Of a stretch of 47,071 bases of DNA, positions 124-47,071 are shown in pieces. Source of the DNA: a virus; IMG/VR virus record IMGVR_UViG_3300010396_000056, positions 1-47,071 of that record; one strand, written 5' to 3'. The notes under the pieces were generated by a model. That model searched no databases. It saw only the letters and a list, made by a program, of their open reading frames with translations, and was not told the origin of the DNA. Made by a program: the position numbers and the translations under genes. How positions within the stretch are numbered: position 1 is the stretch's first letter; every line of letters begins with the position of its first letter.

Positions 124-279
124 TGCCACGTTCGGGCCGTGGATGTAGACCGATGCGCCGTGCGTCTTGCTGGGCGGATACTCCACAACGAGGTACCCGG
201 CGTACCAACCGATGCGGCTCATGCGGCCCTTGGGGACGGGTACGAGGTTGGCCTTGGCTACTACCTCACTCGTCGTCAT
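25..279 (-). CDS. KTSC-domain-like small protein
   Basis: An 84-residue protein. A run of roughly IGWYAGYLVVEY... followed by a variable loop and a basic C-terminus resembles the KTSC domain, a short fold proposed to bind nucleic acid and often found in phage replication regions. The ATG at 279 is chosen because GGAGGA lies just upstream and the ATG overlaps the preceding stop as TGATG. Its own stop overlaps the helicase ATG as TAATG (seen at 25-27 and again at 46973-46975), so it is translationally coupled to the helicase. The frame stays open upstream, but that extension is out-of-frame shadow of the neighbour. The assignment rests on pattern resemblance only. Confidence 0.6.
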   Translation of the reverse strand: MTTSEVVAKANLVPVPKGRMSRIGWYAGYLVVEYPPSKTHGASVYIHGPNVAECERDKLLKVPYPDSLLGQLKKKHSWQSLKVK

Positions 280-536
280 CAGAATCCTCCCATGAACGTA
301 TCGACCTCGAAAGCAGAGATGCCGCACTTGGAGCAGGAAACACTGTAGGCGTTGCCGATCTTCACTGTGCCTCCATCCCACACGTGATCTTCCTCGGTGC
401 ACTTGGGAGGCGAGCAAACAAAAGATGTGACCGGGGATGTTTCCTCAAGTTGGCAATCACAGTAGCACCCGTTTCCAGTACAAGCAGAGTGCATTCCGTC
501 GAAGCAGGAGGGGCATACTGGATAAGTTTCGCTCAT
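279..536 (-). CDS. Cysteine-rich small protein, probable zinc binder
   Basis: An 85-residue acidic protein. It has an N-terminal C-x2-C, a cluster of closely spaced cysteines near residues 19-28, and two later C-x2-C-type pairs (CSPPKC, CSKC). These could form one or two zinc ribbons. The gene sits in the leftward early unit, overlapping the upstream gene by ATGA (533-536) and the downstream KTSC-like gene by one base. I do not recognise a specific family. Small zinc-ribbon proteins are common among phage early host-takeover genes, but no function can be assigned. Confidence 0.7.
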   Translation of the reverse strand: MSETYPVCPSCFDGMHSACTGNGCYCDCQLEETSPVTSFVCSPPKCTEEDHVWDGGTVKIGNAYSVSCSKCGISAFEVDTFMGGF

Positions 537-751
537 GGATGCGCCGCCAGCTTCCGCCCCTCAACCCACGACAGGTCGGCGGCTATGCTGCACTTCAAGC
601 CGAACGACTCGCCGGGAAGCACAGGCTCGCGGTGGCACTGGAAGCACATGCCCTTCGGTGGAAGGATGACCGGACGGCGTTGGCGGCGCATAGGATCAGG
701 GCCGTAGTAATCGCGGTCGTGTGCAATTTCGGTGCTGGTAGGTTGCCTCAT
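533..751 (-). CDS. Small basic protein with one CxxC, unknown function
   Basis: A 72-residue basic protein of unknown family. A central CFQCHREPVLPGESFGLKC stretch (C-x2-C ... C) suggests a half or atypical zinc knuckle. ATGA overlaps on both sides (533-536 and 748-751) place it firmly in the translationally coupled early series, and that is the main reason to call it a gene. Confidence 0.6.
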   Translation of the reverse strand: MRQPTSTEIAHDRDYYGPDPMRRQRRPVILPPKGMCFQCHREPVLPGESFGLKCSIAADLSWVEGRKLAAHP

Positions 752-1002
752 AGCTCTCCCTTCAGCGGTACCCTCATCAACTCGTCAGCCTTGGCCCAGC
801 ACGCATCCCTCTGAGCCTCGTACTTCGCCAACAGACGCGTCTGCATAGGCGTGCAAAGGACGGGTTGTCGCTTCACATCTTCGGCAATCTCCGCACGGTG
901 GCGCTCGTGCATCCAGCCAACCTCAACGTACATCCAGTAGTGGCGGTACGGAGGTCGGAGTGAACGCCAGCAGCGGAGCAGGAAGTAGACCATTGTTTTC
1001 AT
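748..1002 (-). CDS. Small protein, hydrophobic-aromatic N-terminus
   Basis: An 84-residue protein of unknown family. The N-terminus (MKTMVYFLLRCWRSL) is hydrophobic and then rich in Arg, Trp and Tyr; the rest is charged and helical. The ATG at 1002 is preferred over the longer open frame because it overlaps the upstream stop as ATGA (999-1002) and has GAAAGG upstream. It could be a small membrane-associated protein, but the hydrophobic stretch is short. Confidence 0.6.
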   Translation of the reverse strand: MKTMVYFLLRCWRSLRPPYRHYWMYVEVGWMHERHRAEIAEDVKRQPVLCTPMQTRLLAKYEAQRDACWAKADELMRVPLKGEL

Positions 1003-1184
1003 TCGTAGCAACCTTTCTCTTTGTTGGCCCTCCATCCACGGCGCTTGGCAATGGTGGCGGCGTACTCTTTGCACTCTGGGGTCTCTGAGCGCATGAGAGG
1101 GATGATGAACCGGTTGAAGCTCTCCAGCGTGTTGCACCAGCCCACCATCACCTTCCATGTGCCAAGATGTTTGTCGTCGCTCAC
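999..1184 (-). CDS. Hypothetical early protein (61 aa)
   Basis: A 61-residue protein with mixed composition (MSDDKHLGTWKVMVGW...) ending in a Lys-rich tail. It has no recognised domain. It overlaps the Gp157-like gene upstream (ATGA at 1181-1184) and the next gene downstream (ATGA at 999-1002). The coupling and a plausible start support expression, but nothing suggests a role. Confidence 0.6.
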   Translation of the reverse strand: MSDDKHLGTWKVMVGWCNTLESFNRFIIPLMRSETPECKEYAATIAKRRGWRANKEKGCYE

Positions 1185-1702
1185 TTGATGCGCAGGAACC
1201 TGGTCGGCGGGTTCTCGTGCACGTTGATGGCGTTGGGGAGGGGATCGCCGGCAGAGAACCTGTTGCGAATCGCCGTGGTGTTCAGCGCGTAGGTCTTCTT
1301 CACCAATTCACTGTCCGTCACGTCCAGCGCCATGAGGTCAGCATCCGGCGCGAGTTCGATGGTCAGCGAAGGTGCTGCGTTCTGTCCCCAGATGGTGTTC
1401 TTCGCTGTCTTCAGCTTGCCGTTGAACGCGGCATCTACAGCGAACAACATGCGTGCCTTCAGGGACTCCGCAGCGGCCTCCAGTGACTTCTGACGCTCGC
1501 TGTAACGCTTCGCCTCGGCCTTGCATACCTCCGCGTCCGCTTCGATCTTGCGGACGACCCATGCAGCGCCGTCAAGAGACTCTGAGCCTTGCGCGAGCAG
1601 GGCGTCGATTGATGCTTCAATCTCTGGGGTGATTTCCCCCATTGACTCGTAAAGCGCATCCGAGATTGCGATGCCTGCGGTTCCGATGTCGAGTAGTTTC
1701 AT
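1181..1702 (-). CDS. Gp157-family phage protein
   Basis: A 173-residue protein resembling the Siphovirus Gp157 family. The N-terminal half is a long helical, coiled-coil-type segment with a pattern like EIEASIDALLAQG...KIEADAEVCKAEAKRYSER. This is followed by the conserved beta region with KLKTAKNTIWGQNAAPSLTIE. Proteins of this family usually lie next to phage single-strand annealing or RecA-like genes, as here: the upstream Sak4-like ATPase overlaps it by ATGA (1699-1702). It probably acts in phage recombination or replication, though its biochemical role is not established. The start is set by the overlap; the open frame upstream is shadow. Confidence 0.85.
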   Translation of the reverse strand: MKLLDIGTAGIAISDALYESMGEITPEIEASIDALLAQGSESLDGAAWVVRKIEADAEVCKAEAKRYSERQKSLEAAAESLKARMLFAVDAAFNGKLKTAKNTIWGQNAAPSLTIELAPDADLMALDVTDSELVKKTYALNTTAIRNRFSAGDPLPNAINVHENPPTRFLRIK

Positions 1703-2628
1703 GCCGATGCTCCTTCGACTACAGGTTGAGTGTCGTATTCCTCGGTTCCCGATACAGGTGTGGCCCACTTCAGCAATTCGGCGTAGGCTTCGGGCGTGAT
1801 GTTGTTCACATCCTTTACATCCAAGCGAGCGAACTCGGCCTTGATTTCCTCCTTGGTCTTCGCGGAGAATTGGCACTGCTTCCACAACTCCGCAACCTGT
1901 AGAGGGTCAACAAAGCGCGGCGAAAGACCGTTCGCCATCCAGTCGCGGATGGCACCAGCTACCTCGGGAGATGTCAGATCAATCGGCTCATCCCCCGCGA
2001 ACAGGTTGGTGCGGTTCTTCGACGCCGTTGCCTGATGGCTCATGCCAACCTCGAAGACGATGGTGAACTCGTACTCCAGTCCGTCACGCTGAATCGGAGC
2101 CAATCCCACCTTGCGCGGCTGTTGCTTGCCCTTCGCGTTGGTCTCCAGAACGTACTCCTGCTTTGTCCGCAGTGTGCAGATTGTGTGGATGGGAATCTGC
2201 TTGATGAACTCCACGAACTGCGTGTGCTCCGGGGTGTAGGTGCTCCAGTTCGTGTAGCTGTTCGACCCAGGCTGACGGTCAAGAGCCTCCTTGCGGCGCA
2301 GAATGCCACCTTCTCCGTCCCACTGCTGCGTCAGGCTGTCCACGATCAGCACATCGTACCCGCCGTCTACAGCGGCTTGCATGGCCTTGCGGTAGCGTTC
2401 CGAGGTGTATGGTGCGGTAAGTGGGATGGTGTCGAAGTCGTAGCGGTCAGCGTAGAGCGATGCCGACTCGTTCTCGGTGTCCACGACAAGGATCTTGGCG
2501 TTGGGGACGAAGTTCTTTGCCAGAGCCAACGCCCCCTCAGTCTTGCCGGAACCGGAGGGGCCTTGGATTGCCATCTTCAGCTTGACGCTGTGCTTCTGCG
2601 CCTTGCGGGGTTGAAATTCATTTGCCAT
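1699..2628 (-). CDS. Sak4-like AAA ATPase (RecA-fold recombinase)
   Basis: A 309-residue RecA-fold ATPase of the AAA_24/Sak4 type. Walker A is GPSGSGKT (residues 23-30). KILVVDTENESASLYADRY follows, and a Walker B-type strand DVLIVDSLTQQW lies at about residues 92-103. Sak4-like proteins are short phage RecA relatives that promote strand annealing or exchange, usually with a single-strand binding protein; I see no SSB gene here. The start ATG has TAGGAGG in a small hairpin loop (2635-2650). The gene is coupled downstream to the Gp157-like gene. The C-terminal third is helical and less conserved. Confidence 0.85.
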   Translation of the reverse strand: MANEFQPRKAQKHSVKLKMAIQGPSGSGKTEGALALAKNFVPNAKILVVDTENESASLYADRYDFDTIPLTAPYTSERYRKAMQAAVDGGYDVLIVDSLTQQWDGEGGILRRKEALDRQPGSNSYTNWSTYTPEHTQFVEFIKQIPIHTICTLRTKQEYVLETNAKGKQQPRKVGLAPIQRDGLEYEFTIVFEVGMSHQATASKNRTNLFAGDEPIDLTSPEVAGAIRDWMANGLSPRFVDPLQVAELWKQCQFSAKTKEEIKAEFARLDVKDVNNITPEAYAELLKWATPVSGTEEYDTQPVVEGASA

Positions 2629-2634
2629 TTATCG

Positions 2635-2650
2635 TCGCCTCCTAGCGCGA
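2635..2650 (-). promoter_or_regulatory. SD-in-loop hairpin upstream of Sak4-like gene
   Basis: Read on the minus strand, TCGC-GCTAGGAG-GCGA forms a 4-bp stem with the SD core AGGAG in the loop, 6-7 nt before the ATG at 2628. It belongs to a set with those at 3452, 4786, 5965 and 45025. Confidence 0.5.
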
Positions 2651-2666
2651 TTTTACTGCGGTTGAA

Positions 2667-3449
2667 CTACTTTCCTTCCATCGCATCACGTACTGCCCGG
2701 ATGGTGTCGCGGTGGATCTCTACCACCATCGCGTCCGGTTGGGTAGCGGCCTCGGCAAGCAAGATATTCAGCGCCTTGCGTACCTTGGGGTCGATAGCTA
2801 CGGGCTTAGGTGCGGCTGCTGGGGCTTGCTCCTTCACGTCCGCCAGGGTAATCTTCCCCGGCTTCGCAAGCACCTTTGCCTGAGCGTCCTTGGACAGCTT
2901 CGCAATCGCCTTCACTGCTGGCCCTACAACGCGCTTGGCGCGCACGGCGGTCTCTGCGGCAGGGGAAAGCTCCAGCAATTGCAAGCGGCCCCGAATCCAG
3001 CCCGGCGTGGCGTGGTATACCTCAGCCGTCTGCGCTTCGGACATCTGGTAGACGTTGATGAGCCGCTGGATGTTGTGAGCGTCGTCCAGTTCGGTGGTGA
3101 CATTGCGCACGCGGTTCTCGGAGATGTTGGCGATGAATGCCTGTTGCTCCGTGAGCTGCGTGTACTTGCACCACAGGCGGAACGGCACCGGGGTAAGTCC
3201 GCGCTTGTTTATCTCCACGGCAGCACGCCAGCGCGAGAAGCCAGCGGTGAGGACAGGCTTGCCGGCCGTTTTGCGGATGCTCACCGGCTGAATCTGGCCG
3301 TGGGGCAACAGCATGTCCTGCACTAGCCATTCGATGTCGGGCAGATCGTGACGCCCGTTCATGGTGGGGTCAACCGTCAAGTCTTCGGGGAGCGCAGTCC
3401 ATAGACCTTCGCTGCGCTTGATGTCTGAGTCGTCAAATGTTACGGGCAT
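2667..3449 (-). CDS. ParB/sulfiredoxin-fold DNA-binding protein
   Basis: A 260-residue ParB-like protein. The N-terminal ParB/Srx domain includes a G-FSRWRAAVE segment, matching the family's G-x-R-R-x-x-A motif, preceded by a strand around ILPHGQIQPVSIRKT. A helical HTH-like middle follows (ISENRVRN...TAEVYHATPGWIRGRLQLLEL), as in ParB/Spo0J. The linker is Ala-, Pro- and Lys-rich. Phage ParB-fold proteins serve in partition, transcription control or as nucleases; no centromere-like repeats were seen here. Its SD lies in a weak hairpin loop (3452-3465). It is separated from the upstream small membrane gene by about 70 bp. Confidence 0.85.
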   Translation of the reverse strand: MPVTFDDSDIKRSEGLWTALPEDLTVDPTMNGRHDLPDIEWLVQDMLLPHGQIQPVSIRKTAGKPVLTAGFSRWRAAVEINKRGLTPVPFRLWCKYTQLTEQQAFIANISENRVRNVTTELDDAHNIQRLINVYQMSEAQTAEVYHATPGWIRGRLQLLELSPAAETAVRAKRVVGPAVKAIAKLSKDAQAKVLAKPGKITLADVKEQAPAAAPKPVAIDPKVRKALNILLAEAATQPDAMVVEIHRDTIRAVRDAMEGK

Positions 3450-3451
3450 GT

Positions 3452-3465
3452 GGCCTCCTAGAGCC
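3452..3465 (-). promoter_or_regulatory. Weak SD-in-loop hairpin upstream of ParB-like gene
   Basis: Minus strand GGC-TCTAGGAG-GCC, a 3-bp GC stem with AGGAG in the loop and a 4-nt spacer to the ATG at 3449. It is the weakest member of the set and is listed because the loop sequence is the same. Confidence 0.3.
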
Positions 3466-3519
3466 GATTAGTGTAGCGCGGGGATGGTCGCTTATAGTGC
3501 CAACTGAAGCCCGCGAAGT

Positions 3520-3642
3520 CTAGTGCTTGATATGCTGTACGGCACCCACAAAGAGGCACCGAAGGATGTAGGAGATGGCAAGCAGATCGCCAGCCACGAG
3601 GAAGAGGAAAGGGTGCAGGTAGACGCGGTGCACGGGCTTCAT
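3520..3642 (-). CDS. 40-aa membrane miniprotein
   Basis: A 40-codon gene supported by its ATGA overlap (3639-3642) with the HTH gene upstream. The translation begins MKPVHRVYLHPFLFLVAGDL and continues hydrophobic to a short basic end, so one transmembrane helix (about residues 11-30) is predicted, with the basic N-terminus inside the cell. The family is unknown. A small membrane protein co-expressed with a leaderless regulator could act in takeover, exclusion or signalling; the sequence cannot say which. Confidence 0.6.
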   Translation of the reverse strand: MKPVHRVYLHPFLFLVAGDLLAISYILRCLFVGAVQHIKH

Positions 3643-3824
3643 TGCATCATCCTTTCAATCGAAGCGTAGGAGATGCGAACGATGCCTTGCTTGCTGGCGC
3701 TCATCTTTCGGGAGACCAGCTTACCTTCTGCGGCCCATCGCGTGATCGTGCGAACAGAAACGCCCAACAGACCAGCAGCCATTGCTTTGCTGATCCATTG
3801 GGCGGGTGTGGTTGGTTGTGCCAT
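3639..3824 (-). CDS. HTH regulator (excisionase/MerR-like), leaderless
   Basis: A 61-residue winged-helix/HTH protein. ISKAMAAGLLGVSVRTITRWAAEGKL is the canonical pattern of phage excisionase- or MerR-like DNA-binding domains (helix-turn-recognition helix, then a basic wing with RKMSASKQGIVRI). The ATG at 3824 has no SD. It lies 7 nt after a TAGTAT -10 box with TTGACA 17 bp upstream, so the mRNA should start at or beside the A of the ATG. An inverted repeat, AACAT-N5-ATGTT, sits between the boxes and may be an autoregulatory operator. The longer open frame upstream is non-coding. With no integrase present, a transcriptional role is more likely than an excision role. Confidence 0.8.
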   Translation of the reverse strand: MAQPTTPAQWISKAMAAGLLGVSVRTITRWAAEGKLVSRKMSASKQGIVRISYASIERMMQ

Positions 3825-3831
3825 GAGAGGA

Positions 3832-3860
3832 ATACTACAGAACATGGCGTATGTTGTCAA
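3832..3860 (-). promoter_or_regulatory. Sigma70-type promoter with internal operator for HTH gene
   Basis: On the minus strand, -35 TTGACA is at 3860-3855, the spacer is 17 bp, and -10 TAGTAT is at 3837-3832. The inverted repeat AACAT-N5-ATGTT (3841-3855) fills most of the spacer. The TGA inside the -35 hexamer is the stop codon of the upstream zinc-finger gene. Confidence 0.75.
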
Positions 3861-3976
3861 GTGTTGTCTTGTGCGGGCTTGCATTTGTGGCCCGTCACCT
3901 TGCTTGACGGCATCACGGCCTTGCAGTTGAGGCACTGGAACAGCTTGGGGGGACGGCCAGGAGCGCGTGTGGTCAT
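3857..3976 (-). CDS. 39-aa zinc-finger miniprotein (C-x2-C...H-x3-C)
   Basis: A 39-codon gene with ATG at 3976 overlapping the upstream stop as ATGA. The translation begins MTTRAPGRPPKLFQCLNCKA and continues with a GHKCK segment, giving C15-x2-C18 ... H32-x3-C36 or similar, a compact zinc-finger pattern. The basic GRPPK segment is AT-hook-like, so DNA binding is plausible. The stop TGA lies inside the -35 box of the next promoter. The family is unknown. Confidence 0.6.
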   Translation of the reverse strand: MTTRAPGRPPKLFQCLNCKAVMPSSKVTGHKCKPAQDNT

Positions 3977-4158
3977 GGCTGCGACTCCTTGAGACGGAAC
4001 TGAGTGCAGCGGCATGTCGCGTACTCGCAGTCGCTACCCTCGGGCGTCTCGCTCCACGTGTGATCGTCATAACTGTGACCACAGACGCAGAGAAGGTCAA
4101 AGTCCGCGTCGCAAGTGATGTTTAGCGGCAAGGTGGTTACGTGTATGCGCTCGCTCAT
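3973..4158 (-). CDS. 61-aa Cys-rich protein, probable zinc ribbon
   Basis: A 61-residue acidic protein with five cysteines (C16, C24, C26, C43 and a CRC pair near residues 49-51) and a histidine, consistent with a zinc-binding fold. Its organisation (LLCVCGHSYDDHTW ... YATCRCTQF) resembles phage proteins with the pattern CxCGH...H...C-x-C. ATGA overlaps at both ends (3973-3976 and 4155-4158) place it in the coupled early string. No function can be assigned. Confidence 0.6.
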   Translation of the reverse strand: MSERIHVTTLPLNITCDADFDLLCVCGHSYDDHTWSETPEGSDCEYATCRCTQFRLKESQP

Positions 4159-4388
4159 TTGCCCCTCGCTTTCAGTTTCTCAGCCCTGACCCTTGCAGCT
4201 TCAATCTTGTACGCCAGGTGTGCGACAGCCTCCCAAGTCACCGCAAGGCGCTGGCGGGTGCCTTTGAGCCTCACCACGGCGTACTCTGGCTCAGCTTCGA
4301 TGACGATGGGGCGGTATCGGCGACCGTCTCGGAGTTCTGAGGCGGTCTCGAATACCAGACGGGAGCGGCGTTCGCGGAGGGCGGTCAT
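4155..4388 (-). CDS. Hypothetical basic early protein (77 aa)
   Basis: A 77-residue, Arg-rich protein predicted as two or three beta strands (VIEAEPEYAVVRLKGTRQRLAVTW) followed by a basic helix (AYKIEAARVRAEKLKARGK). This is compatible with nucleic acid binding. The ATG at 4388 is chosen because it overlaps the stop of the 26-aa membrane gene (ATGA at 4385-4388). The longer open frame reads through that gene out of phase. The family is not recognised. Confidence 0.6.
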   Translation of the reverse strand: MTALRERRSRLVFETASELRDGRRYRPIVIEAEPEYAVVRLKGTRQRLAVTWEAVAHLAYKIEAARVRAEKLKARGK

Positions 4389-9380: not shown

Positions 9381-10106
9381 ATGAGGTTCTTCGTAGGACT
9401 CCACCAACCTAGCGATGCCAAGAACTTTTCGGCCTCGTTCGTTTCGGTGAATAGAATCCGCGATAGAAAATCTTCCTTTGAGATTGGCGACTGGATCATG
9501 GACAGCGGCGCGTTCACGGAAGTATCTACGCACGGTCGGTATCGCCATTCAGTTGAGGAATACGCAGAACAGATACGACGATGGAAAGACAATGGCAACT
9601 TGCTTGCGGCGGTATCTCAGGACTATATGTGCGAGCCCTTCATCGTGGAGAAGACTGGACTATCGGTTGCCGAGCATCAGGCGCTCACCATCGAACGCTA
9701 TGACACTTTGCTGACTTGTAATACTGGGGTTCTAATAATGCCCGTCCTGCAAGGATTCCACCCCGATGATTACGTTCGCCATATCCGCATGTACGGCGAG
9801 CGCTTGAAACCTGGCATGTGGGTTGGCGTGGGTTCTGTCTGCAAGCGCAATGGAAACATCCGAGCCATAGAAGATGTGCTGCTTACAATCCACCGAGAGA
9901 GACCGGATTTGAGGTTACATGGCTTCGGATTGAAAACCACGGCTTTATCATCTGGTCTTGTTCAGGAGTTGCTTCACACGGCAGATTCTATGGCCTGGTC
10001 ATTTGCAGCTCGCATTTCTGGGAGAAACGGAAATGACTGGCGCGAGGCTAGGGATTGGTCGAACCGTATAACGTCGAGGGCTGTACAGATGCCAATGTTT
10101 GTTTGA
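9381..10106 (+). CDS. dpdA: DpdA-like deazaguanine DNA transglycosylase
   Basis: A 241-residue protein of the tRNA-guanine transglycosylase (TGT) superfamily, of the phage DpdA-like type that exchanges guanine in DNA for a 7-deazaguanine and so protects against restriction. The active-site-type segment WIMDSGAFTEV (38-48) matches the TGT DSGGFQ motif. PVLQG (121-125) matches the substrate-site VQGG, VGVGSVCKR (148-156) follows, and ADSMAWSFAAR (201-211) matches the region of the catalytic Asp. MRFFVGLHQPSDAKNF at 9381 is a typical N-terminus for these proteins; the open frame upstream is A/T-rich leader. No folE, queD, queE or queC homologue is visible, so the deazaguanine would come from the host. 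Confidence 0.8.
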   Translation: MRFFVGLHQPSDAKNFSASFVSVNRIRDRKSSFEIGDWIMDSGAFTEVSTHGRYRHSVEEYAEQIRRWKDNGNLLAAVSQDYMCEPFIVEKTGLSVAEHQALTIERYDTLLTCNTGVLIMPVLQGFHPDDYVRHIRMYGERLKPGMWVGVGSVCKRNGNIRAIEDVLLTIHRERPDLRLHGFGLKTTALSSGLVQELLHTADSMAWSFAARISGRNGNDWREARDWSNRITSRAVQMPMFV

Positions 10107-10119
10107 AAGGAGACGCCCC

Positions 10120-10179
10120 ATGAAGATCCACTACTGGATATACGGACTCATCGTTGGTATCGCGGTGCTTTGCTGGTAA
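10120..10179 (+). CDS. 19-aa membrane micropeptide
   Basis: ATG at 10120 with AAAGGAG upstream, TAA at 10177. The product MKIHYWIYGLIVGIAVLCW is one hydrophobic helix with a basic start. It lies between the dpdA-like gene and the next gene, each with its own SD. Translation is plausible, but the peptide is too short for certainty. Confidence 0.4.
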   Translation: MKIHYWIYGLIVGIAVLCW

Positions 10180-10199: not shown

Positions 10200-10421
10200 A
10201 TGAGCAAGGAAATAGACTGGGAAAAAATAACAGGATGTCAGCCGTGGATCGAAGCTGGCATTGGCGACCGCGTGGTGACTTGGGATGAATGGTGCGCACT
10301 CCTGGCCGAGTACAAGGTGTACCGAAGGCTGACGGAATTGCAGATCCAAGCAACAGTGCAGAGCCAAGCAGACATCGACCACTATTTAGATTTGGCCCGC
10401 TCAGAGATTGCCGAGGGATAG
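10200..10421 (+). CDS. Hypothetical protein upstream of terminase (73 aa)
   Basis: A 73-residue acidic protein (MSKEIDWEKITGCQPWIEAG...) with a helical C-terminus. GGAAGGGAG precedes the ATG at 10200. It lies directly before the large terminase, where a small packaging subunit often sits, but I see no HTH, so that role is only a possibility. Confidence 0.55.
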   Translation: MSKEIDWEKITGCQPWIEAGIGDRVVTWDEWCALLAEYKVYRRLTELQIQATVQSQADIDHYLDLARSEIAEG

Positions 10422-10428
10422 GAACCGA

Positions 10429-12150
10429 ATGGCTCGCAAGGTAGCTGCACCGACACCCGCTCCCGACCTACTCGAAGGCTACGACCCTAAAGACCCTGCG
10501 TCTCTACAGGTGATCGAAGACAAGGTACGCAGCTACGTAAAGCTGGCGTTCCTGAAGATGAACCGGGCGCAGGAGCCGTTCGTTCGCATCAGGAACAAGC
10601 GGGGCCGGATGCCGAGGGTGCGTCTGTTCGAGAGCGGAAATCAAACGGGAAAATCTGCTATAGGAGTAGCCGAGGACATTGCACACGCGATGGGATTCAG
10701 GCCGTGGTTGGACAAGAACGACCCCGACTACAAGATCAACGTGCGCGTCCCCAACAACGGCCTGGTGGGTTGCGAGGTCGCAGGGCAGACGTTGGCGCAG
10801 AGGATCGAACCGGAGTTCATGCAACTCATCCCGGCGTACTGCGGGGTGACAACCACCCGCTACTCTGACGGGTCAATCAAAAGCCTCCACATCACCAACG
10901 ACTTCAACGGCAAGCCCTGCGGTTCCACCATCCACTTCCGCTCGTACGTGCAGTCAGCAGAGAGCTACGAAGGCGTTGTGCTGGACTGGATTCACTTTGA
11001 CGAGCCGCCACCGCAGGAGATTCTTACCGCTGCCACACGCGGCCTTATGAGCACCAACGGGCCAAGCTGGTACACCATGACGCCGTTGAAAGAGGCGTAC
11101 ATTTACGACCTGTTCTCGCTGCACGCTTTCAACCAGGGCGGCGAGGATCAGGAGATTGCCGTCTTCCGTGGCTCGACGTGGGACAACTGCCAAGACTGGT
11201 GCCGCGACTGCGACACGACGATCCCCGAGAACGACCCTGAAGTTTTGAAGGCGGGGCAGGTTCGCCCGGTGGACAACTGCCCGAAGTGCGGTCGCGTTAT
11301 GGGATTCCTGCCCCGCGCCGGCATTGAGAACTACCTGAAGAAGATCACCGACCCGGACGAGCGCGAAGCGCGCGAAGAAGGCAAGTGGAAGCATCTATCT
11401 GGACTGGTTTACAAGGAGCTTGACCGTGAAAAACACATATACGAAGACTTTCAAATTCCTAACGACTGGATGCGCATCGAAGTCCTCGATCCCCACGATG
11501 CCAGACCTTGCTGCTGGCTATTCGGAGCCGTATCGCCAGAGGATATCTCAGTTAATGGAAGAGCAGCGAACCGAATGTACTGGTACGCGTACCTTCGACC
11601 TAGTGGAAACATCGAGTCCATCTGCCGTCAGGTTCGCGTGAAGCGTGCCGAACACAATTACAAAGAGCCCGCAATGCTCATCATCGATGTGAAGTTCGCG
11701 GCCGCTGAGAAGCCCCTGCATGGAGAGTCCTACCCGTCATGGGAAGAGGAGCTTGAGAAGGCCGGCATGAAGCGCATCGTCCACTCCTGCTCGAACCCCG
11801 GCGACGTGTCTCTCGGTCACAAGCGAGTGAAGGAGTACCTGCAACCGCACTACTCCACAGTGAAGGACAAGAGTTTCCCCGGCATGATGTTTGCGAGGCA
11901 GGGAACCAGCGGTGACGGTGGCCCCATGCAGCACATGAGTAACTACGCCTGGAAAGAAGGCAGCGACAAACCGATGGAGGCGTACAAAGACTTCTGCGAC
12001 TGCGTGCGCTACGCTTGCCTCGAACAGCCAACCTATTCCCCGCCGCAACCAGAGATAGACGAAGCGTTCGCACGCATGCTCATGGATCGAGAGTCCATGA
12101 AGCCCCCGGAGAGCATTCTCTTCAGCGGCCTGAACATGAGGAATCAGTGA
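10429..12150 (+). CDS. terL: Terminase large subunit
   Basis: A 573-residue DNA-packaging motor. The ATPase has a Walker A variant SGNQTGKS (69-76) and a Walker B with catalytic acidic residues in VLDWIHFDEPPP. A TMTPLKEAY coupling segment follows. A zinc-knuckle insertion (CQDWCRDC ... CPKCG) sits between the ATPase and nuclease halves. The RNase H-like nuclease shows LIIDVKFAAAEK and a distal acidic DFCDCVRYA segment. It cuts and translocates DNA into the prohead through the portal at 13310. The ATG at 10429 has AGGA upstream. It overlaps the GNAT gene by GTGA (12147-12150). Confidence 0.92.
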   Translation: MARKVAAPTPAPDLLEGYDPKDPASLQVIEDKVRSYVKLAFLKMNRAQEPFVRIRNKRGRMPRVRLFESGNQTGKSAIGVAEDIAHAMGFRPWLDKNDPDYKINVRVPNNGLVGCEVAGQTLAQRIEPEFMQLIPAYCGVTTTRYSDGSIKSLHITNDFNGKPCGSTIHFRSYVQSAESYEGVVLDWIHFDEPPPQEILTAATRGLMSTNGPSWYTMTPLKEAYIYDLFSLHAFNQGGEDQEIAVFRGSTWDNCQDWCRDCDTTIPENDPEVLKAGQVRPVDNCPKCGRVMGFLPRAGIENYLKKITDPDEREAREEGKWKHLSGLVYKELDREKHIYEDFQIPNDWMRIEVLDPHDARPCCWLFGAVSPEDISVNGRAANRMYWYAYLRPSGNIESICRQVRVKRAEHNYKEPAMLIIDVKFAAAEKPLHGESYPSWEEELEKAGMKRIVHSCSNPGDVSLGHKRVKEYLQPHYSTVKDKSFPGMMFARQGTSGDGGPMQHMSNYAWKEGSDKPMEAYKDFCDCVRYACLEQPTYSPPQPEIDEAFARMLMDRESMKPPESILFSGLNMRNQ

Positions 12151-13037: not shown

Positions 13038-13310
13038 ATGTCTGGAATCTCAACCGCAACCGCTCTCCTGATATCGGCAGGCGTGGGCCTTGCTACCACA
13101 GGAGCCACGCTGGGCTACGAGGCATCGCAGGGTGGCCCACAAGCCCCGTCAGCGACCGACACAGAGAAGCAGCAGGCGGAAGCCGCCAACGCATCGGCGC
13201 AGGCCCAGGCGCTGGCATTGCAGAAGCGGCGCGGCATGGCAGCGACACAACTCACAAGCCCACTCGGGACGAACACTCCCGCGAACGTGGCGAAAGCGAC
13301 CCTCGGCTAA
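13038..13310 (+). CDS. Small Ala/Gln-rich virion-type protein
   Basis: A 90-residue protein with an N-terminal hydrophobic stretch (ATALLISAGVGLATTGATLG) and a helical Ala/Gln-rich remainder. Its start MSGIS-T-ATA-L-LI is nearly identical to that of the protein at 24978, which lies among the internal virion proteins. A virion or membrane-associated role is inferred. GAGG precedes the ATG. TAATG overlaps the portal gene. Confidence 0.6.
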   Translation: MSGISTATALLISAGVGLATTGATLGYEASQGGPQAPSATDTEKQQAEAANASAQAQALALQKRRGMAATQLTSPLGTNTPANVAKATLG

Positions 13311-15175
13311 TGGTGCCCATGATGGCCGCAACCCGGCAAGGTCTGTCGAACTCATACGGTGAGTCGAAGCTGGGTGCTCGCAACAACGACCAGAAGGCCA
13401 AGGACTGCGAGAAGTACCTTGAGGTTCTTGCGCTGCAACGCCTCTATTGGGAACCGCAGCTCGACAACATCATCGCGTTCGTAAACCACGGAAGACGCTT
13501 CATCCAAGACCGCGACTTGCAAGACGGACAGCAGACCGGACAAGAGGTATTTGACGATACGGCGATGCTGGCACGTAACAAACTGGTTGATGGTATGACC
13601 GGCTATCTCTGCTCGCGCAATCAGCCGTGGTTCGGTCTGGAACTACCCGGCAAGATCAACTTCCCCCGCACGTCGGGGATGCGTGCGTGGAACGGTCAGC
13701 GTGTGGACTCCTATCCACAGGTGCAGAAGTGGCTACAGGACTGCGGTGAGGTTCTGTACTCTGCGTTCAACCGCTCGAACTTCTACGACAAGAACCCGGA
13801 ATTTATCTCGGACGGAGCGACATGCGGTACGGCCTACTTCCTGATCGAAGAGGACATCAAGAACAGCCGCGCAGTGTTCACGGTTCCCCACTTCCGCGAG
13901 TGCTTCATTGCCGAAAACGAGTTCGGACAGGTGGACACCAACTACCGCGTGTACCGCATGACCCTGCGGCAGATGGTTGAGAAGTTCGGCATGGACGAGA
14001 TGGAGAAGGCCGACCGAAACTTCAAAAAAGACTACGAAGCAAACATGTACGCCGAGCGCGACATCCTCCACGCCATCTACCCGCGTGCGGACTTCAACCC
14101 CGGACGCGCCGACGCCAAGGGGAAGAAGTGGGAGAGCGTGTGGGTGTACCGCCAAGGCGGAAAGATTCTCCCGCGCCAAGGTTCCACATCTGGCAGGGAC
14201 GACAAGATCACCATGCTCCACGAGGGCGGCTACGATTCCATGCCGATTATCTCGTGGCGCTGGCGGGTGAACAGCGATGAGGTTTACGGTCGCGGCCCCG
14301 CTCACGATGCTTTCGTGGCTATCGCTCTGGCAAATCAGATGGGGAGAACCAATCTGGTAACTGCCCAGCGCGCCGCAGAGCCTCCGCTAGTGGCGTACTC
14401 GGACATGCGCGGATCAATTCAGCGAGGGCCAGCGGGCATCACGTACATGGAAGGGAACCGTGGCGACATCCGCACACGCGCTCCGCAGCAGTTGACGACC
14501 GGCGTGCAGAATCTTCCATTCACCGTGGAGTACCAAGACCGCCGCGCCGCGATCATCAACGAATACTTCCACACCGACGTTTTTATGATGATGTCGCAGC
14601 TTGCCAACGCGGGCAAGAGCGAGCGTATGGTGCAGGAGCAGGTACAGGAATTGCAGGGCGAGAAGGCCGCAATCCTCGGTACCCGCGTCGGCAACCTTCA
14701 GTCTGAGGCGTTCGACCACATCATCAACCGCATGTACGAAATCGAAGCCGCTGCCGGCCGCATTCCCATGCCTCCCGACATCCTGCTCAACTCGATTCAC
14801 GCGAAGGTGGAGATTCAGTATCTCGGGCCACTGGCGCAGGCGCAGACGCGGCTCACGGCGGTTCGCAACATCCAGTCGGGACTTGGACTGGTGACGGCGA
14901 TCGCGCAGATCAACCCAACGTCCGTGGACATGATCGACTACGACCAGGCGGCGATTGAGGCGCTTCAGGCGGTCAGCTTCCCAGCGTCGTGCATCCGCGA
15001 TACCAAGCAGGTCACAGCCATCCGTCAGCAGCGTTCTCAGATGCAGGAAGCGGAGCGCAAGACCGAGGCGATACCGAAGCTGGCGGGAGCGGCGGCAAAG
15101 CTGGCGAAGCAACCGGAGTCGGGCAGCATCCTTGAGAAGCTGATGGGCGGAGGCGGCGATGCAGAACAGCAGTAA
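13310..15175 (+). CDS. Portal (head-to-tail connecting protein)
   Basis: A 621-residue podovirus portal. The N-terminus has the family pattern of a helical segment, then DNIIAFVNHGRRFIQDRD and a DDTAMLARNKLVDGMTGYLCSRNQPWFGLEL segment. This matches the bacteriophage head-to-tail connecting family of T7-like connectors. Twelve copies would form the DNA entry channel and contact TerL and the tail. It starts by TAATG overlap with the preceding gene; GTG or ATG codons at 13313-13322 are alternative starts. The Ala/Gly-rich C-terminus (GGGGDAEQQ) is overlapped by the next gene. Confidence 0.9.
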   Translation: MVPMMAATRQGLSNSYGESKLGARNNDQKAKDCEKYLEVLALQRLYWEPQLDNIIAFVNHGRRFIQDRDLQDGQQTGQEVFDDTAMLARNKLVDGMTGYLCSRNQPWFGLELPGKINFPRTSGMRAWNGQRVDSYPQVQKWLQDCGEVLYSAFNRSNFYDKNPEFISDGATCGTAYFLIEEDIKNSRAVFTVPHFRECFIAENEFGQVDTNYRVYRMTLRQMVEKFGMDEMEKADRNFKKDYEANMYAERDILHAIYPRADFNPGRADAKGKKWESVWVYRQGGKILPRQGSTSGRDDKITMLHEGGYDSMPIISWRWRVNSDEVYGRGPAHDAFVAIALANQMGRTNLVTAQRAAEPPLVAYSDMRGSIQRGPAGITYMEGNRGDIRTRAPQQLTTGVQNLPFTVEYQDRRAAIINEYFHTDVFMMMSQLANAGKSERMVQEQVQELQGEKAAILGTRVGNLQSEAFDHIINRMYEIEAAAGRIPMPPDILLNSIHAKVEIQYLGPLAQAQTRLTAVRNIQSGLGLVTAIAQINPTSVDMIDYDQAAIEALQAVSFPASCIRDTKQVTAIRQQRSQMQEAERKTEAIPKLAGAAAKLAKQPESGSILEKLMGGGGDAEQQ

Positions 15176-24977: not shown

Positions 24978-25466
24978 ATGTCGGGAATTTCTTCTGCAAC
25001 CGCAATGCTCATCGCCGGTGGAACATCGTCTGCCCTGACAGCGGGCGGGAAGATATTGCAGGGCCAAGAGCAGAAGCAAGCCTACGACTACAACGCCGAC
25101 ATCACTAAACTCAACACCGACAACAAGGTAGAGGCCAATCAGGACGCCTTCACTGCCTTAGTGGGACGGCAAGCCACGGCATACGCTGCGTCCGGGGTGG
25201 ACATCGCCTCCGGTTCTCCACTCCTGACGATGATTGCCACTTCCGCGCGCGGTGCGCGAGAGGGGGAGCAGATTGAAGAGTCCGGTACGGAGCAGGCCAA
25301 CCTCCAGCGCTACTACGGGCGCATCGCCGCGTTCTCTGGAACTATGAGCGGCATCGGTGCATTTTTGCAGGGGATGAGTGGAGACCTTGCCTCCTACGCG
25401 AAACTCACCAACAACCCCATTCCGACCGGAGACCCTAACGCTCCCTACGGCCCCAACTCGGACTGA
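24978..25466 (+). CDS. Internal virion-type protein (162 aa)
   Basis: A 162-residue protein starting with a hydrophobic segment (MSGISSATAMLIAGG) and continuing helical, Ala/Gly-rich, with a QGQEQKQAYDYNADITKLNTDN segment. Position and character fit a T7 gp14-like internal core protein. The start is nearly identical to that of the protein at 13038. Start chosen at ATG with AGGA upstream. Confidence 0.65.
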   Translation: MSGISSATAMLIAGGTSSALTAGGKILQGQEQKQAYDYNADITKLNTDNKVEANQDAFTALVGRQATAYAASGVDIASGSPLLTMIATSARGAREGEQIEESGTEQANLQRYYGRIAAFSGTMSGIGAFLQGMSGDLASYAKLTNNPIPTGDPNAPYGPNSD

Positions 25467-25468
25467 CC

Positions 25469-27286
25469 ATGGCGAAGATACCCGGCGTACCCACAATCGA
25501 CCCCGTTGATAAGCCGATGGAATCCCCTGCCGAAGCGGGCAAGGTGGGAGCGGCCATTGCGGGTCTTGGTGAGGCTACGCAGGATGTTGTGCAGACCGGG
25601 TTTCAGGTTGAACTGTTCCTGAAGAAAGCACAGCAGAACGTAGACGAGACCACGTTTCAGAACAACGCTCACGCTCTCATGTTGCAGTATCAGGATGCGT
25701 TGGCGAAGACGACAAACTCACGCGACGTTGCCGCCGTTACTAAGGAGTATCAGGACAACCTACAGGCCAACGTCAAGCGGTGGGAGAAGTCCCCGGCGCT
25801 TATTCAGATTCAGCAGCAAGCCGATGGCCTCACTCCGCAGCTTACCCATCTGGGTACGGTGAAGACGGCAGACCTCCAGGTAAAGGAATCGGCGGTGCAG
25901 TCTGAGATTCAGAAGCAGACACTCCTCCCGCAACTCGTGAACGCCGTCCGCAATGGAGACAAGGCCACGGAAGACTTCATCAACGGGGCGATGGATCACC
26001 AGTACGCGGAGCGGGAGAAGGCGGGCCTCATCTCCCACGCTCAGGTGGAACTGGAAAAGAACGCAGACCAGATTCGTTTCCGCACGCAGTTGAATGAGTC
26101 GTACATCGAGAGCAACGACCCCAAGGAACGGCTGTCGGCCATAGCGCAACTCAAGAGCGGCGGGAGCGGCCAGCTGAACCTCGAAGGACTGGCGGCTGGA
26201 GACATCGCGGCGTTGCGCGTGCAGGCGGAAAGCAAGAACCGCGAACTGGATAACCTGGCCGAAGCGGGGAACCTGAACAAGGCTCTCAACGTAACGCAAG
26301 CTGCGTTCTCCGCACCGGAGTACAAGAACAACTATGAGGCTCGCGTGAACTCTCTTCAGGATGGAGACTGGCTAACCAAGCACGGCATCGTAGCCCCTGA
26401 CGGCAGCCCTGACCGCGTGATGGCTGAGAAGCTTATCGCCGAGACCAATCGGCAGCGTGGGGAGTGGGAGAAAGAGCGTGCCGACCGCGACGAAAAGGCC
26501 ATCAACAAGATCGAACCGCTCATCATCGGCAACAGCCTTTCGCGTGGGCAGCTTGTGCAGATTTCGCAGCAAGAGCAACTGTCTCCCCGCGCCTATGCCG
26601 CTGTGCTGGCGAAGTGGGATGAGAACCAACGCTACAACCATCAGGTAGCCACTGAAGGCCGCATACTGGCGAATCAGGAGAGACAGCAGCGCAGTCAAGA
26701 CGTGGCGGCTGGATTCAACCTGCTCATCGCCCAGGGCGGCGTGCCTTCGGTTCACGACATCCTCACCACTCCCGGCATGACGAAGGCCGACCAGTCCACA
26801 GTGATTGAGCGGGCAAAGCGGGCGAGAGAGGACAAGCCGTATCAGGAAGGTCTTTCGATCATCTCTAACGCCTACCCGGTGAACACAAAGAAGATGACAC
26901 CGGAGCAACAGAATCAGCAGAACGAAATGTACCTGCGGACGGCACAGGCTTACGACCAAGAAATCAACGCGCATCCCGACGAAGACAAGTCAGCCATCGC
27001 TGGCAAACTGGTTATGCCGAGCATCGTCCGCACGGCCATCCAAAAGAGTGTCCCGTCTACAGTACCCGTTGCTCCTGTGGCTGTGAAGACAGAGCATCAC
27101 CCACTGAAGGCCATAGGAGACTTCCTGTTCGGTGGAGCGTCGAAGGACTTGGAGAAGGGGTACAACGCCGCTGAAAACAAGCTCGCTCAACCCTTGGATA
27201 AGCCTACCTCCAAGCCGCCAACCAATCCAGCGAAGGGTGATAAGTTCAACGGGTTCACGTGGGACGGAAATGGATGGACGAAGTAG
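25469..27286 (+). CDS. Internal virion protein, long helical (605 aa)
   Basis: A 605-residue, highly charged helical protein with long coiled-coil-like stretches and Gln-rich segments. The position between the 162-aa protein and the 1318-aa protein corresponds to T7 gp15. It probably forms part of the ejected core that carries DNA across the cell wall. The C-terminus (KGDKFNGFTWDGNGWTK) is short and aromatic. No enzymatic motif seen. Confidence 0.75.
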   Translation: MAKIPGVPTIDPVDKPMESPAEAGKVGAAIAGLGEATQDVVQTGFQVELFLKKAQQNVDETTFQNNAHALMLQYQDALAKTTNSRDVAAVTKEYQDNLQANVKRWEKSPALIQIQQQADGLTPQLTHLGTVKTADLQVKESAVQSEIQKQTLLPQLVNAVRNGDKATEDFINGAMDHQYAEREKAGLISHAQVELEKNADQIRFRTQLNESYIESNDPKERLSAIAQLKSGGSGQLNLEGLAAGDIAALRVQAESKNRELDNLAEAGNLNKALNVTQAAFSAPEYKNNYEARVNSLQDGDWLTKHGIVAPDGSPDRVMAEKLIAETNRQRGEWEKERADRDEKAINKIEPLIIGNSLSRGQLVQISQQEQLSPRAYAAVLAKWDENQRYNHQVATEGRILANQERQQRSQDVAAGFNLLIAQGGVPSVHDILTTPGMTKADQSTVIERAKRAREDKPYQEGLSIISNAYPVNTKKMTPEQQNQQNEMYLRTAQAYDQEINAHPDEDKSAIAGKLVMPSIVRTAIQKSVPSTVPVAPVAVKTEHHPLKAIGDFLFGGASKDLEKGYNAAENKLAQPLDKPTSKPPTNPAKGDKFNGFTWDGNGWTK

Positions 27287-30200
27287 ATGCCAACCTACTA
27301 CGACCCCGTAACAGGTAAGCCTGTAGCGCAAGCTGCGAAGACCTACTACGACCCCACGACCGGCGCTCCTGTGCAGCAAGGCGCTGCGGATGTCCCACGC
27401 GCGAACCCCACTCCGGTAACGCTCCCCCCTGACTTCGGTTCCGACACTTTCAAGGCCGCAGTCCACGCTCAGATGCTCGGCATAGACCCCGGCATGGCGT
27501 ACACGAACCGCGAGGAAATCGACAAGCAACTGAAGTCGCAGGGCGCTGGAAGCTACGATGACGGGCAACTGGACGACACCATTGCCAACGACATCAAGGT
27601 AGGTTTCGAGTCATCCATCTTCGGTCTCCATCACCGCGAAGCACTGCCTGAAACCATCAAGAACCCCGGCATGATTGACAAGTTTGTCTCGGGTCTGTCG
27701 GAGATGTTCGCAGACCTTCCGTGGTACGTGGCTGGTGGTGTGGTGGGTGGAGCGGCCGGCTCTGAGGCTCCCGTAGTGGGAAACGCGGTAGGAGCAGCGG
27801 CTGGGGCTTTTGCTATCCCATCCGCGATGCGGGAAGCCCTTGTGCTGGGCATCAAGGACGGCGAGGTAAAGGACTTTCCTGACTTGCTTCGTCGTGCCGG
27901 TAAGGTGGTGTGGGAAGGAACTAAGGGAGCAGTGGTAGGAGCGGCGACCGAACTAACTGGAGGCATTGCCCCGGTGATCGCTAAAAGCCCGCTGACTTCG
28001 ATGGCGATCAAGGGGTTGTTTCAGGCGACGGGAATGACGGTGGCGGCGGATGTTCTTGAAGGCCATCTGCCAACGGCCAAGGACTTCGCTGGCAACGCTG
28101 CGCTCATCATCCCGCTGAACCTCATCACCCACGGCCTGCCGCTGCTTACCGGTGACGCCAAGCAAGCCGTGATGGACGTGTACGCCAAGGACGGCAAGAC
28201 GCCACAGGAGACAACCGAGACGCTCAACGCGCAGCCTCCGGTGAAGCCTGACCTACCCGAAGGACTGCGACCAGCAATCAAGCACGCAGAAGGAGTAACC
28301 GAGGGTGATACGACCGACACGCACGACAAACTTGCGGAGCGCGTACTGTCCGATAAACCTGTCTCGATGGAGAAGTTGGAGGCAGAACCGGCGCTTGCCG
28401 ATGATGTGTTGCAGAACCCCACGGTTCACGATCAGGATGTCATTGACCGGGCGTGGCAAATCAAGTCGGAAGCGATAAACGCGGGGGAGACTAAGGATCT
28501 TCCTGAAGGTGCTACTTCCGTTACCCGCGATGAGGCGGTGGAAGCTCGCGAGTCGGCTAACAAGACAGGAAGGCACGCGGAAAACATGCAGGGCGTTCGC
28601 TCTCTCGCCAGCGAAATGCCCGAAGGAGAATACGTTCGCACGGAGATACCGATAGAGAAGATCGTGGCGGCAAAGGATGCAGACCCAGAACTGGTAAAGC
28701 AGTACGCCGAACGCGAGGGCAAGTTCCCGCCTTCCTACGGAACGATGCAGAAGGGCAAGGTTCTTCTGGAGGATGGAAACCACCGCCTAGAAGCCGCTCG
28801 CGCTCGCGGGGACAAGAGCCTTGAAGTCATCATGCCGCGTGCAGCGTTTGACGCTTACTCTGGAGAAGAAAAGCCTCTGAGAATCGAGGATGAGTACGAC
28901 CGCGCATCCATGAAAACAGGGCGTGGCTTCGTTACCCCTGACGGTAAGTTTCTCAGCCGCTCCGAAGCCCGCGCATGGATGAAGGATAACGAACCTGACA
29001 CCCACGAAATTTGGTTGCAGGAGCAGAACGGAGACAAGCAGGCAGAACTTCACACAGAGGACTACGCCAGCGCACGGAACCGGGTGCAGGCGCGTTCGCT
29101 GGTGCAGGGTGACCCGGTTGCCTCAGATATTCCCCCCGACCTCAAGAGGTTCCTCGCAGAAGCGCGCAGCACTACCGGGATACTCAACAAGGTCAAGGCT
29201 GGCCTCGGCAGCGCGAAGTATGGCTACGAGGCCATCAGGACGCTGCTGGTTGGGCCGCGCAACTATCTCCGCGCCGAAGGGGAGCAAGTCGTCAGTGGAT
29301 TGCGGAAACTGGTACCTGACCCGGTGGAGCAACAGGCTCTCCACTTCGTTCGTGACTACCGCGATGACCCTGAAGCCCTGCGTTCGTCCATCGAAGAAAT
29401 ACGCTCCGGGGACAACGATAAGCTGAAGGCGTTCCTGCCTGCGATGGAGCGGGCGCTGGAGCCGATGTCTCCTGAGATGGAACAGGCAGACGCAGCGATG
29501 ACGGACTACTTCACCAAGGCGCTCGCCCTGGGCCGTGCCGTTGGGACGCTGGACTCTGCTATTGACCCATCGCGCTACAGCCCTCGCCTGTTCGCTCGCG
29601 TGACAGAGGAAGGCGCTACAGGAGGTACGGGCCGTCCCACGTTCACAGACCGCACCGTGAACTCCATCCGTCGCGACTACCTCCACACGCTAGACCCACT
29701 GAAGGATGGCACGACTGAGGCTCGCACGTTCAACGCGATTGATGAGATGTCCATCTACAACGACCGTCACGCTACGGCGGTATCCACTGCGCTGTTCAAA
29801 CAGGAACTCAAGAACTCGGCGCTTGGAGTAGAGGGTAGCCGCGGCAAAGTTCCCGCTGGATGGGTGGCGCTGACAAAGCAGTTTGAGGACAAGCGGACGT
29901 TCGTGCAGGATGACGGAACCAATGTCACGACCGTCAAGAATCTGTACGTACCGAAGGACATTGCGGACGCGCTCAAGCCACTTCTCGAAGATCCCGGCCA
30001 GCTTTCGCAACTGTCGAAGTTCCTGCATATCCAGTCCATCGTCAAAGGCATCGAGCTCACCCTGTCGGCGTTCCATATCAAGGCTCTCTCCGTGACGGCG
30101 TTCAACAACATGGGTCTGAAGGACTTCGTGAGCGCGATGCACGCTGACAGCAACTCTGCGGACGTTGCGGAGATTGAGAGGCGTGGTGCGCTGTACGGAC

Positions 30201-45465: not shown

Positions 45466-46973
45466 GCTGTCACCGCCTCGGATGCTTTCTTCTCCGCCAG
45501 GTACGCTTTGCGCTTCTCTCGCACGAACTGCTTTACCTCAGGTGTGGGAGCCATGCCCCTGGTCGGCAACGTCTCCGGGATGAAGCCAAACTTCTCCTCG
45601 AAAGCGTGGCGCAACCAGCCATTCTTGTAGCCCGAAGTGTCGCGGATCATCTTCAACTGCCGCAACCAATCACTCTGCTCGCGAGTGAGCGGCGGTGTGG
45701 CTTTGATTTCTACCAGCCTTCCATCCTTCACGGTCACACCGGGGTAGAGTGGCATCTTCTCCGCACAGGTGGGGCAAGCACGCGCACCGGGCCGCACCAT
45801 AGTCTGGCACTTCTGGCACTTGCGAGGCTTCGCGGGTTTGTAATCCTCTTTGAACGCCTCGGCTCGCTCACCGGGCTTGCGAGTGTCCAGCGTGTCGTGA
45901 AAGATATCCGAGAACAGGCCGAGCTTGGCGTTGTTGCCCGCGTGGTCGAATCCGGTGTACGTTGCGGTGGGGTCGCCAGTCCGCATCCGGCCCCATTTCT
46001 GTACGTGGCGCATCTCTGACATCGTGGGTTGCAAGTCTAGGATGTTGTACACGACTTCATCCACACCACGTATCAGGCACCCTACCGAAGCGATGCCCGC
46101 AATCTCTCCGTAGGCCATCTGGTCGAAGATGCGGCGGCGCTCGTCCTGGGGAACCATCGCATCAATGTAGCCGAAGGGAATCCCGCAGTCGTGAAACGCT
46201 TCCATCTGGGCCTTGGCATGGTCGCGGTTGACGCAGAAAGCAAACGTTTTCTCCCGCGAGCTCCGTTCCTTCCACTCCGTCAGCACGTCGCCCACGATGG
46301 TTGAGTCCGTCATTGCCGCGGACGCGCTTGCTTCGGTGAACTCACCCTTTTCTACTGACAGCGCCTCGCGGTCGATATCGTGTGGTGGGCCATAGATGGT
46401 GAAGGGACGAGCATAGCCGTCTGCGATGGCGTCCTGAATCGTTCCGCCGATGATGAGCTTCGACCAGCGCAGTCCCATCCCTCTTGCCCACGGTGTAGCT
46501 GATAGACCGATGACCACGACATCTTTCCATGCGCCTTCGAGTAAGGCATTGAGGCCGTCGAACTGCTCGTGGAACTCATCTATCAGAACCAAGTCCACAT
46601 CGATCGGCGCACGGCGCAAGAGGGTCTGCACGCTGGCAATCTGTACCGTGGCGTTGCGATCTGTGCGGGCGTGTTGGGCCTGCATCACTCCGATGTCATG
46701 GATTCCTTCAGCCTCGAACGCTGCGAGGGTCTGGTCAACCAGGCTGATAGCTGGACAGGTAAACAGTGGCCGCTTACCGCGCTTCAGAGCCGCCGCGATT
46801 ACGTGAGCAGCCCACAGGGTCTTGCCCCATCCGGTGTGCGCCTGTAGGCCGAAGTGCTTGTGACCCTCAGCTATCGCAGCGCGGGCATCGGCATACGCCT
46901 TTAGCTGCCTTGGACGCAGCGGGCGGATGACCTCGATCTGGGATACTTCGCGCTCGAATAGGGTGGGCTGCAT
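45462..46973 (-). CDS. DEAD/DEAH-type superfamily 2 helicase
   Basis: A 503-residue helicase. Motif I is AHTGWGKT (45-52), motif II DEFH (132-135), motif III SATP (158-161), and the motif VI-type QKWGRMRTG is near residue 340. A C-terminal zinc ribbon (CQKCQTMVRPGARACPTC) follows, then a helical tail. Start at 46973 overlaps the KTSC-like gene's TAA as TAATG, linking it across the circle junction. Likely unwinds DNA during phage replication or recombination. Similar SF2 helicases are common in phage early regions. Confidence 0.9.
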   Translation of the reverse strand: MQPTLFEREVSQIEVIRPLRPRQLKAYADARAAIAEGHKHFGLQAHTGWGKTLWAAHVIAAALKRGKRPLFTCPAISLVDQTLAAFEAEGIHDIGVMQAQHARTDRNATVQIASVQTLLRRAPIDVDLVLIDEFHEQFDGLNALLEGAWKDVVVIGLSATPWARGMGLRWSKLIIGGTIQDAIADGYARPFTIYGPPHDIDREALSVEKGEFTEASASAAMTDSTIVGDVLTEWKERSSREKTFAFCVNRDHAKAQMEAFHDCGIPFGYIDAMVPQDERRRIFDQMAYGEIAGIASVGCLIRGVDEVVYNILDLQPTMSEMRHVQKWGRMRTGDPTATYTGFDHAGNNAKLGLFSDIFHDTLDTRKPGERAEAFKEDYKPAKPRKCQKCQTMVRPGARACPTCAEKMPLYPGVTVKDGRLVEIKATPPLTREQSDWLRQLKMIRDTSGYKNGWLRHAFEEKFGFIPETLPTRGMAPTPEVKQFVREKRKAYLAEKKASEAVTA

Positions 46974-47071
46974 TACTTCACTTTCAGGCTTTGCCAGCTG
47001 TGCTTCTTCTTCAGTTGTCCAAGTAGGGAATCGGGATACGGCACCTTCAGCAGTTTGTCGCGCTCGCACTC
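46949..47071. repeat. Right copy of 123-bp terminal direct repeat
   Basis: Identical to 1-123. It holds the start of the helicase gene and the 3' end of the KTSC-like gene (both already listed at their primary coordinates). Joining the window at this repeat gives a 46,948-bp circle. Confidence 0.95.

Follow-up and report, generated by a model that had tools for sequence, protein, structure and literature searches.

A stand-alone DpdA-like gene of the PF23859 branch in a virus record, and the linkage of related genes to small transporter genes

Phages that carry DpdA and no genes for synthesis of its base form the largest group (76 phages) in Hutinet 2019 (PMC6884629), where a possible functional divergence of such singleton DpdAs was raised as a question and YhhQ correlated with no phage group. 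In two DpdA-only phages, Salmonella phage 7-11 and Pantoea phage MED16, dADG makes up approximately 0.02% and 0.13% of G, respectively, and MED16 DNA is still cut by most enzymes tested, with little visible protection from restriction (PMC6884629, PMC8306585). The DpdAs of both phages belong to the phrog_887 family, as do those of 9g, CAjan and Rosebush, which are encoded with FolE/QueD/QueE and QueC or Gat-QueC; in CAjan and Rosebush about 30% of G is modified. Another DpdA family, PF23859, persists in mycobacteriophages, whose host does not produce preQ0 (PMC6884629). Orion (B1, PG1-type), which is assigned to PF23859 through its relatives and not its own sequence, is the only measured phage of this type; mass spectrometry detected no modified base in it, and its host makes no precursor (PMC6884629).

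The 47,071-base stretch analysed here (the window) constitutes an entire virus record, and its identical ends (Table 1) fit a complete genome, either circular or with terminal redundancy; the record is therefore probably complete, and the absence of a pathway gene from it carries more weight than absence from a fragment would. The dpdA-like gene heads the late/packaging genes, shortly ahead of the terminase gene. A nucleotide search with half of the window against phage records returned no match and a terminase search returned distant matches only, neither search pointing to a host. Additionally, the match to a head-tail adaptor/portal suggests a podovirus-like phage.

Table 1. Positions of features in the window and in related records
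Record	Feature	Coordinates	Strand	Remarks
Window	123-bp repeat	1-123; identical copy at 46949-47071		Suggests a complete genome
Window	A/T-rich 51 bases ahead of the dpdA start codon	9330-9380	+	31% GC; GAGG Shine-Dalgarno-like element
Window	dpdA-like gene	9381-10106	+	241 aa; PF23859/phrog_1279
Window	19-aa hydrophobic ORF, MKIHYWIYGLIVGIAVLCW	10120-10179	+	AAAGGAG ribosome-binding site
Window	73-aa ORF	10200-10421	+	Separates the 19-aa ORF from terminase
Window	Terminase large subunit	10408-12150	+	Context for dpdA
Window	Head-tail adaptor/portal	13310-15175		phrog_332 match, 7.4e-102
G039 (locus L073)	Features of the contig with both DpdA kinds	137-3346, 95687-96061 and 99420-100058		111-kb virus contig
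L177	Example of a transporter-DpdA pair	3001-4226		
L178	Example of a transporter-DpdA pair	2279-3471		
L100	dpdA of Microcystis phage Mwe-JY25	3998-4768		Apparent frame shift
G044, contig C1	Region with queuosine-type genes	4095091-4119410		Paraburkholderia genome with dpdA prophage
G047, contig C35	Region with queuosine-type genes	25013-29252		Rhizobium genome with dpdA prophage

The reading frame is open throughout, and its ATG agrees with the start of its relatives, which begin M(R/K)FF. The encoded protein matches the Pfam DpdA family at 2.9e-40 (138.5 bits, against a curated cut-off of 27) and phrog_1279 at 2.6e-67. Residues D41 (in MDSGAF), D81 (QDYMCEP), Q124 (VLQG), G149 and G151 (GVGSVCKR), H180 and G183 (HGFG) and D202 (ADSMAW) are invariant among the 80-81 sequences that cover each position, and remain so after more distant members are added; R156 is likewise invariant in relatives. 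The alignment of catalytic aspartates, which the earlier note had put forward as a check on its assignment of a DpdA/TGT-like gene, left that assignment standing, since in a comparison of profiles with the DpdA group of the 9g/CAjan/Rosebush type (E 1.9e-11) D41 and D202 fall on the invariant aspartates of that group. By analogy with TGT, D202 is likely to be the nucleophile and D41 the acid/base, with D81 likely to participate in base binding.

Neither phmmer nor the family profile found a relative of the protein among PDB sequences; matches were found by fold search alone, using an AlphaFold model (pLDDT 94.8, 60 relatives as input). This model is a TIM barrel of the TGT type, as in the TGT/DpdA superfamily, of which the two catalytic aspartates are likewise characteristic. 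It was best matched by the archaeal (archaeosine) TGT 1iq8 (Z 19.6, rmsd 3.1 over 228 residues) and similarly by the bacterial DNA preQ0 insertase DpdA 7ui4 (Z 19.4, rmsd 3.5 over 228 residues); the latter match spans the whole model, although 7ui4 is longer (413 versus 241 residues), shares 17% identity and functions as part of a large dpd cluster in bacteria. The family is labelled queuine tRNA-ribosyltransferase in PHROGs and GenBank; the CxCxxC zinc-site pattern of tRNA TGTs is absent from the window protein and its relatives, and a six-frame search of the record gave no match to PF01702 (tRNA-guanine transglycosylase). The protein is confirmed as an enzyme of the DpdA/TGT superfamily with its catalytic residues in place.

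Within this superfamily two branches can be distinguished. The measured phage DpdAs that can be assigned, namely those of 9g, CAjan, Salmonella 7-11 and two relatives of Rosebush, Arbiter and Hedgerow, give a match to phrog_887 but none to PF23859, and that of MED16 also matches phrog_887. Members of PF23859 include the PG1-type mycobacteriophages Chah and Colbert, Validus, Gilgamesh, phiLM21, a Rhizobium phage, a Microcystis phage and the window. The window protein reaches E 0.016 against phrog_887, which falls short of a family-level match, and the six-frame translation of the record contains no phrog_887 match. A tree separates the two groups with full support, its long branches limiting any finer reading. 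The window shares with 9g, CAjan and Rosebush the fold superfamily and the catalytic aspartates, but not the family or the accompanying synthesis genes, while its likeness to the 7-11 and MED16 enzymes is confined to the profile level and to the lack of synthesis genes.

The closest described counterparts lie within PF23859. Over nearly their whole length the DpdAs of phiLM21 (Sinorhizobium) and RHph_TM3_3_3 (Rhizobium) share 55% identity with the window protein, but their neighbours are unrelated (DNA methyltransferases and replication genes); they are annotated as hypothetical or TGT, and no measurement on them was found in the literature. The singletons of the PG1/Orion-type and cluster K mycobacteriophages fall in the same PF23859 and phrog_1279 families, share comparable motifs (QDWMCEP, GVGSVCRR, HGFGVK and TADSMAWS) and similarly have no preQ0 genes alongside (PMC6884629); they differ in having about 39% identity to the window protein and a host that lacks the queuosine pathway. 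For PF23859 members in general, no published demonstration of DNA modification was found. In the C-terminal part, actinophage members (L101, L103 and L115) possess a conserved C-x(2)-KHxHCGNC-like segment resembling a metal site, in place of which the proteobacterial-type members, including the window, have GRNxNDWREA.

Six-frame searches of the record for FolE (PF01227), QueD (PF01242), QueE (TIGR03365), QueC (PF06508), YhhQ (PF02592) and the phrog_4899 transporter were all negative, while the same searches did detect these families in control genomes, in agreement with the earlier note, which had seen no synthesis or transport gene. The window thus has DpdA and no pathway genes, as in group 3 of Hutinet 2019, and lacks the genomic FolE, QueD, QueE and QueC of groups 1 and 2. 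It is a further member of the known DpdA-only phages and not new in kind; the earlier note's view of a stand-alone dpdA as unusual is not borne out, given the 76 such phages already described. Across the 44 virus records of the PF23859 family (window included), FolE, QueD and QueC occur together in one, a 111-kb virus contig (G039) that also has a QueE-like gene and DpdAs of both kinds. In this contig FolE, QueD and QueC adjoin the phrog_887 DpdA, with the PF23859 gene elsewhere, and the two enzymes may have different jobs. QueC-like PP-loop genes near dpdA in two further loci (L007 and L039) were considered as a source of preQ0 and rejected, their matches being partial and weak (19-22 bits); PAPS-reductase-like genes, which belong to the same superfamily, occur among dpdA neighbours. 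In genomes bearing close relatives of the gene (Paraburkholderia, Hydrogenophaga, Roseateles and two Rhizobium, possibly drafts), FolE, QueC and a full TGT are present, with a QueD match in each of them except Hydrogenophaga. As these prophage hosts have the pathway, the host queuosine pool proposed in the earlier note is the most plausible source of the base.

The earlier note had also regarded the A/T-rich leader and the 19-aa membrane peptide as unusual neighbours. Both are real: only 0.16% of 51-bp windows have a GC content as low as that of the leader, and the peptide ORF has a good ribosome-binding site. Neither gave a sign of function, as promoter and terminator scans of the region were at or below chance and a candidate preQ1 riboswitch in the leader was dismissed, Rfam returning no match with the E limit relaxed to 2. 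Both elements are unremarkable, with no recognisable signal.

A conserved neighbourhood was similarly rejected, as dpdA is the only window gene common to the large majority of relatives (91 loci), a few others having matches in two to seven loci and none in more, apart from shadow frames inside dpdA itself. In many relatives, dpdA is located beside replication and DNA-modification genes, whereas in the window it precedes a terminase gene. Its GC content (51%, compared with 57.8% genome-wide) suggests that it arrived recently, and among the 16 genes measured none has a GC3 as low as its 56% (58-84% in the others). On these comparisons dpdA behaves as single-gene cargo, moving between unrelated phages. 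By Pfam, the 126 genes adjoining dpdA in relatives include C5 methylases (6), N6/N4 methylases (2), MT-A70 (2), Vut_1 (3) and Lar (2), whereas 83 control genes located 4.5-9 kb away in the same loci include a single N6/N4 methylase and none of the other classes. DNA methyltransferases number 8-10 of 126 near dpdA versus 1 of 83 far from it (PHROGs lists two among the distant genes), with three transporters versus none and two Lar versus none. Categories may overlap and some methylase counts may concern the same protein, so this modest enrichment is suggestive only.

The transporters were pursued further. A PF02592/phrog_4899 gene abuts dpdA in three relatives, with an 8-bp gap or a 4-base overlap; it lies upstream of dpdA in L054 and downstream of it in the other two, L024 and L079. 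A full queuosine precursor transporter (QPTR) is found 959 bp from dpdA in L064, and no gene of this kind beyond these four was found in the 1.37 Mb of DNA retrieved. The three short transporters score below the NCBI cut-off for queuosine precursor transporter, and that of L064 well above it. A reverse search with the L024 transporter yielded 48 IMG/VR loci and 12 phage records, and a DpdA-like ORF was present beside the transporter in all 48 loci and in all seven phage records examined (55 of 55, L129-L183), a sample that includes the L024 locus itself and covers relatives of one transporter type. The two genes mostly overlap by a few bases and are separated by 217 bp at most. A seed profile built from five DpdAs, none of them from this set, detected all 55 (worst E 2.6e-6), and the transporters form 23 clusters at 90% identity and eight at 70%. 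This family is of unknown function in PHROGs and is named VUT in GenBank; a transporter of the same kind adjoins both PF23859 and phrog_887 enzymes, and no published description of the phrog_4899-DpdA pairing was found. We tentatively propose, at slightly under even odds, that DpdA and a small QPTR-like transporter constitute a phage module for DNA modification by salvage only, importing ready-made queuosine precursor for DNA, of which the window gene would be a transporter-less, PF23859 form that is mobile alone. The pairing in both branches predicts that these enzymes use imported or host-made queuosine precursor, names a small clonable gene pair and renders the question of divergence among singleton DpdAs testable.

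The reading that we favour for the window itself, with a probability of roughly 0.6, is that the enzyme places a 7-deazaguanine of host origin in DNA, at low density. It would be a minimal DpdA-type transglycosylase, consisting of the TIM barrel alone and lacking the zinc site, in which D202 would displace guanine with D41 as acid/base, after which preQ0 or a near relative drawn from the host queuosine pathway would be inserted, probably into the phage's own DNA. The base would be supplied by the host or, in some relatives, via a phage-borne transporter, and partial protection from host restriction may result. MED16 and 7-11, as DpdA-only phages carrying dADG (PMC8306585, PMC6884629), offer a precedent by analogy. 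The earlier note took the gene to suggest 7-deazaguanine in the phage DNA, but this does not follow from the gene alone, since Orion had none and 7-11 and MED16 have traces; with MED16 DNA mostly cut, strong protection is not to be assumed either. Against this reading, the measured enzymes belong to phrog_887, from which PF23859 is distant in sequence; Orion's unmodified DNA, the lack of a transporter in the window and the presence of both DpdA kinds in G039 also count against it.

Several of these points would also suit a PF23859 branch that has diverged into an active TGT-like exchanger with another base or another DNA target than classic DpdA, as would its retention in mycobacteriophages despite a host that does not make preQ0 (PMC6884629) and the difference between the actinophage and window C-terminal segments. 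We consider this unlikely, as the active-site aspartates are all retained, together with the GVGS loop and with D81 and Q124, which putatively bind the base, and a transporter of the same kind beside both enzyme families suggests that their base is also of one kind. A moron that is silent or nearly so, with precursor too scarce in this host for meaningful modification whether the gene is expressed or not, would agree with the absent or trace modification of Orion, 7-11 and MED16, with the poor protection of MED16 (PMC6884629, PMC8306585) and with the recent arrival suggested by base composition; it is nonetheless improbable, because relatives with 53-75% identity to the protein strictly conserve its active site, which implies selection for activity. 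Action on host or phage tRNA, altering decoding during infection, appears more improbable still: the overall fold is that of tRNA-guanine transglycosylases and the database name is in keeping with it, but the protein has no CxCxxC zinc site and, at 241 aa, is too short to accommodate the additional domains with which tRNA-type TGTs bind tRNA, the window contains no tRNA genes, and relatives adjoin DNA methyltransferases and Lar.

Two further observations were made in related records. In Microcystis phage Mwe-JY25 the DpdA frame seems to shift ahead of the region of the catalytic D202, which would mean a broken gene or a sequence error. Furthermore, the dpdA-prophage-bearing Paraburkholderia and Rhizobium genomes listed in Table 1 (G044 and G047) each contain a region in which a VUT-type transporter, QueC, QueD and a weak TGT match (a frame of 447-482 aa) lie within about 4-24 kb, and these regions look like bacterial dpd-type islands.
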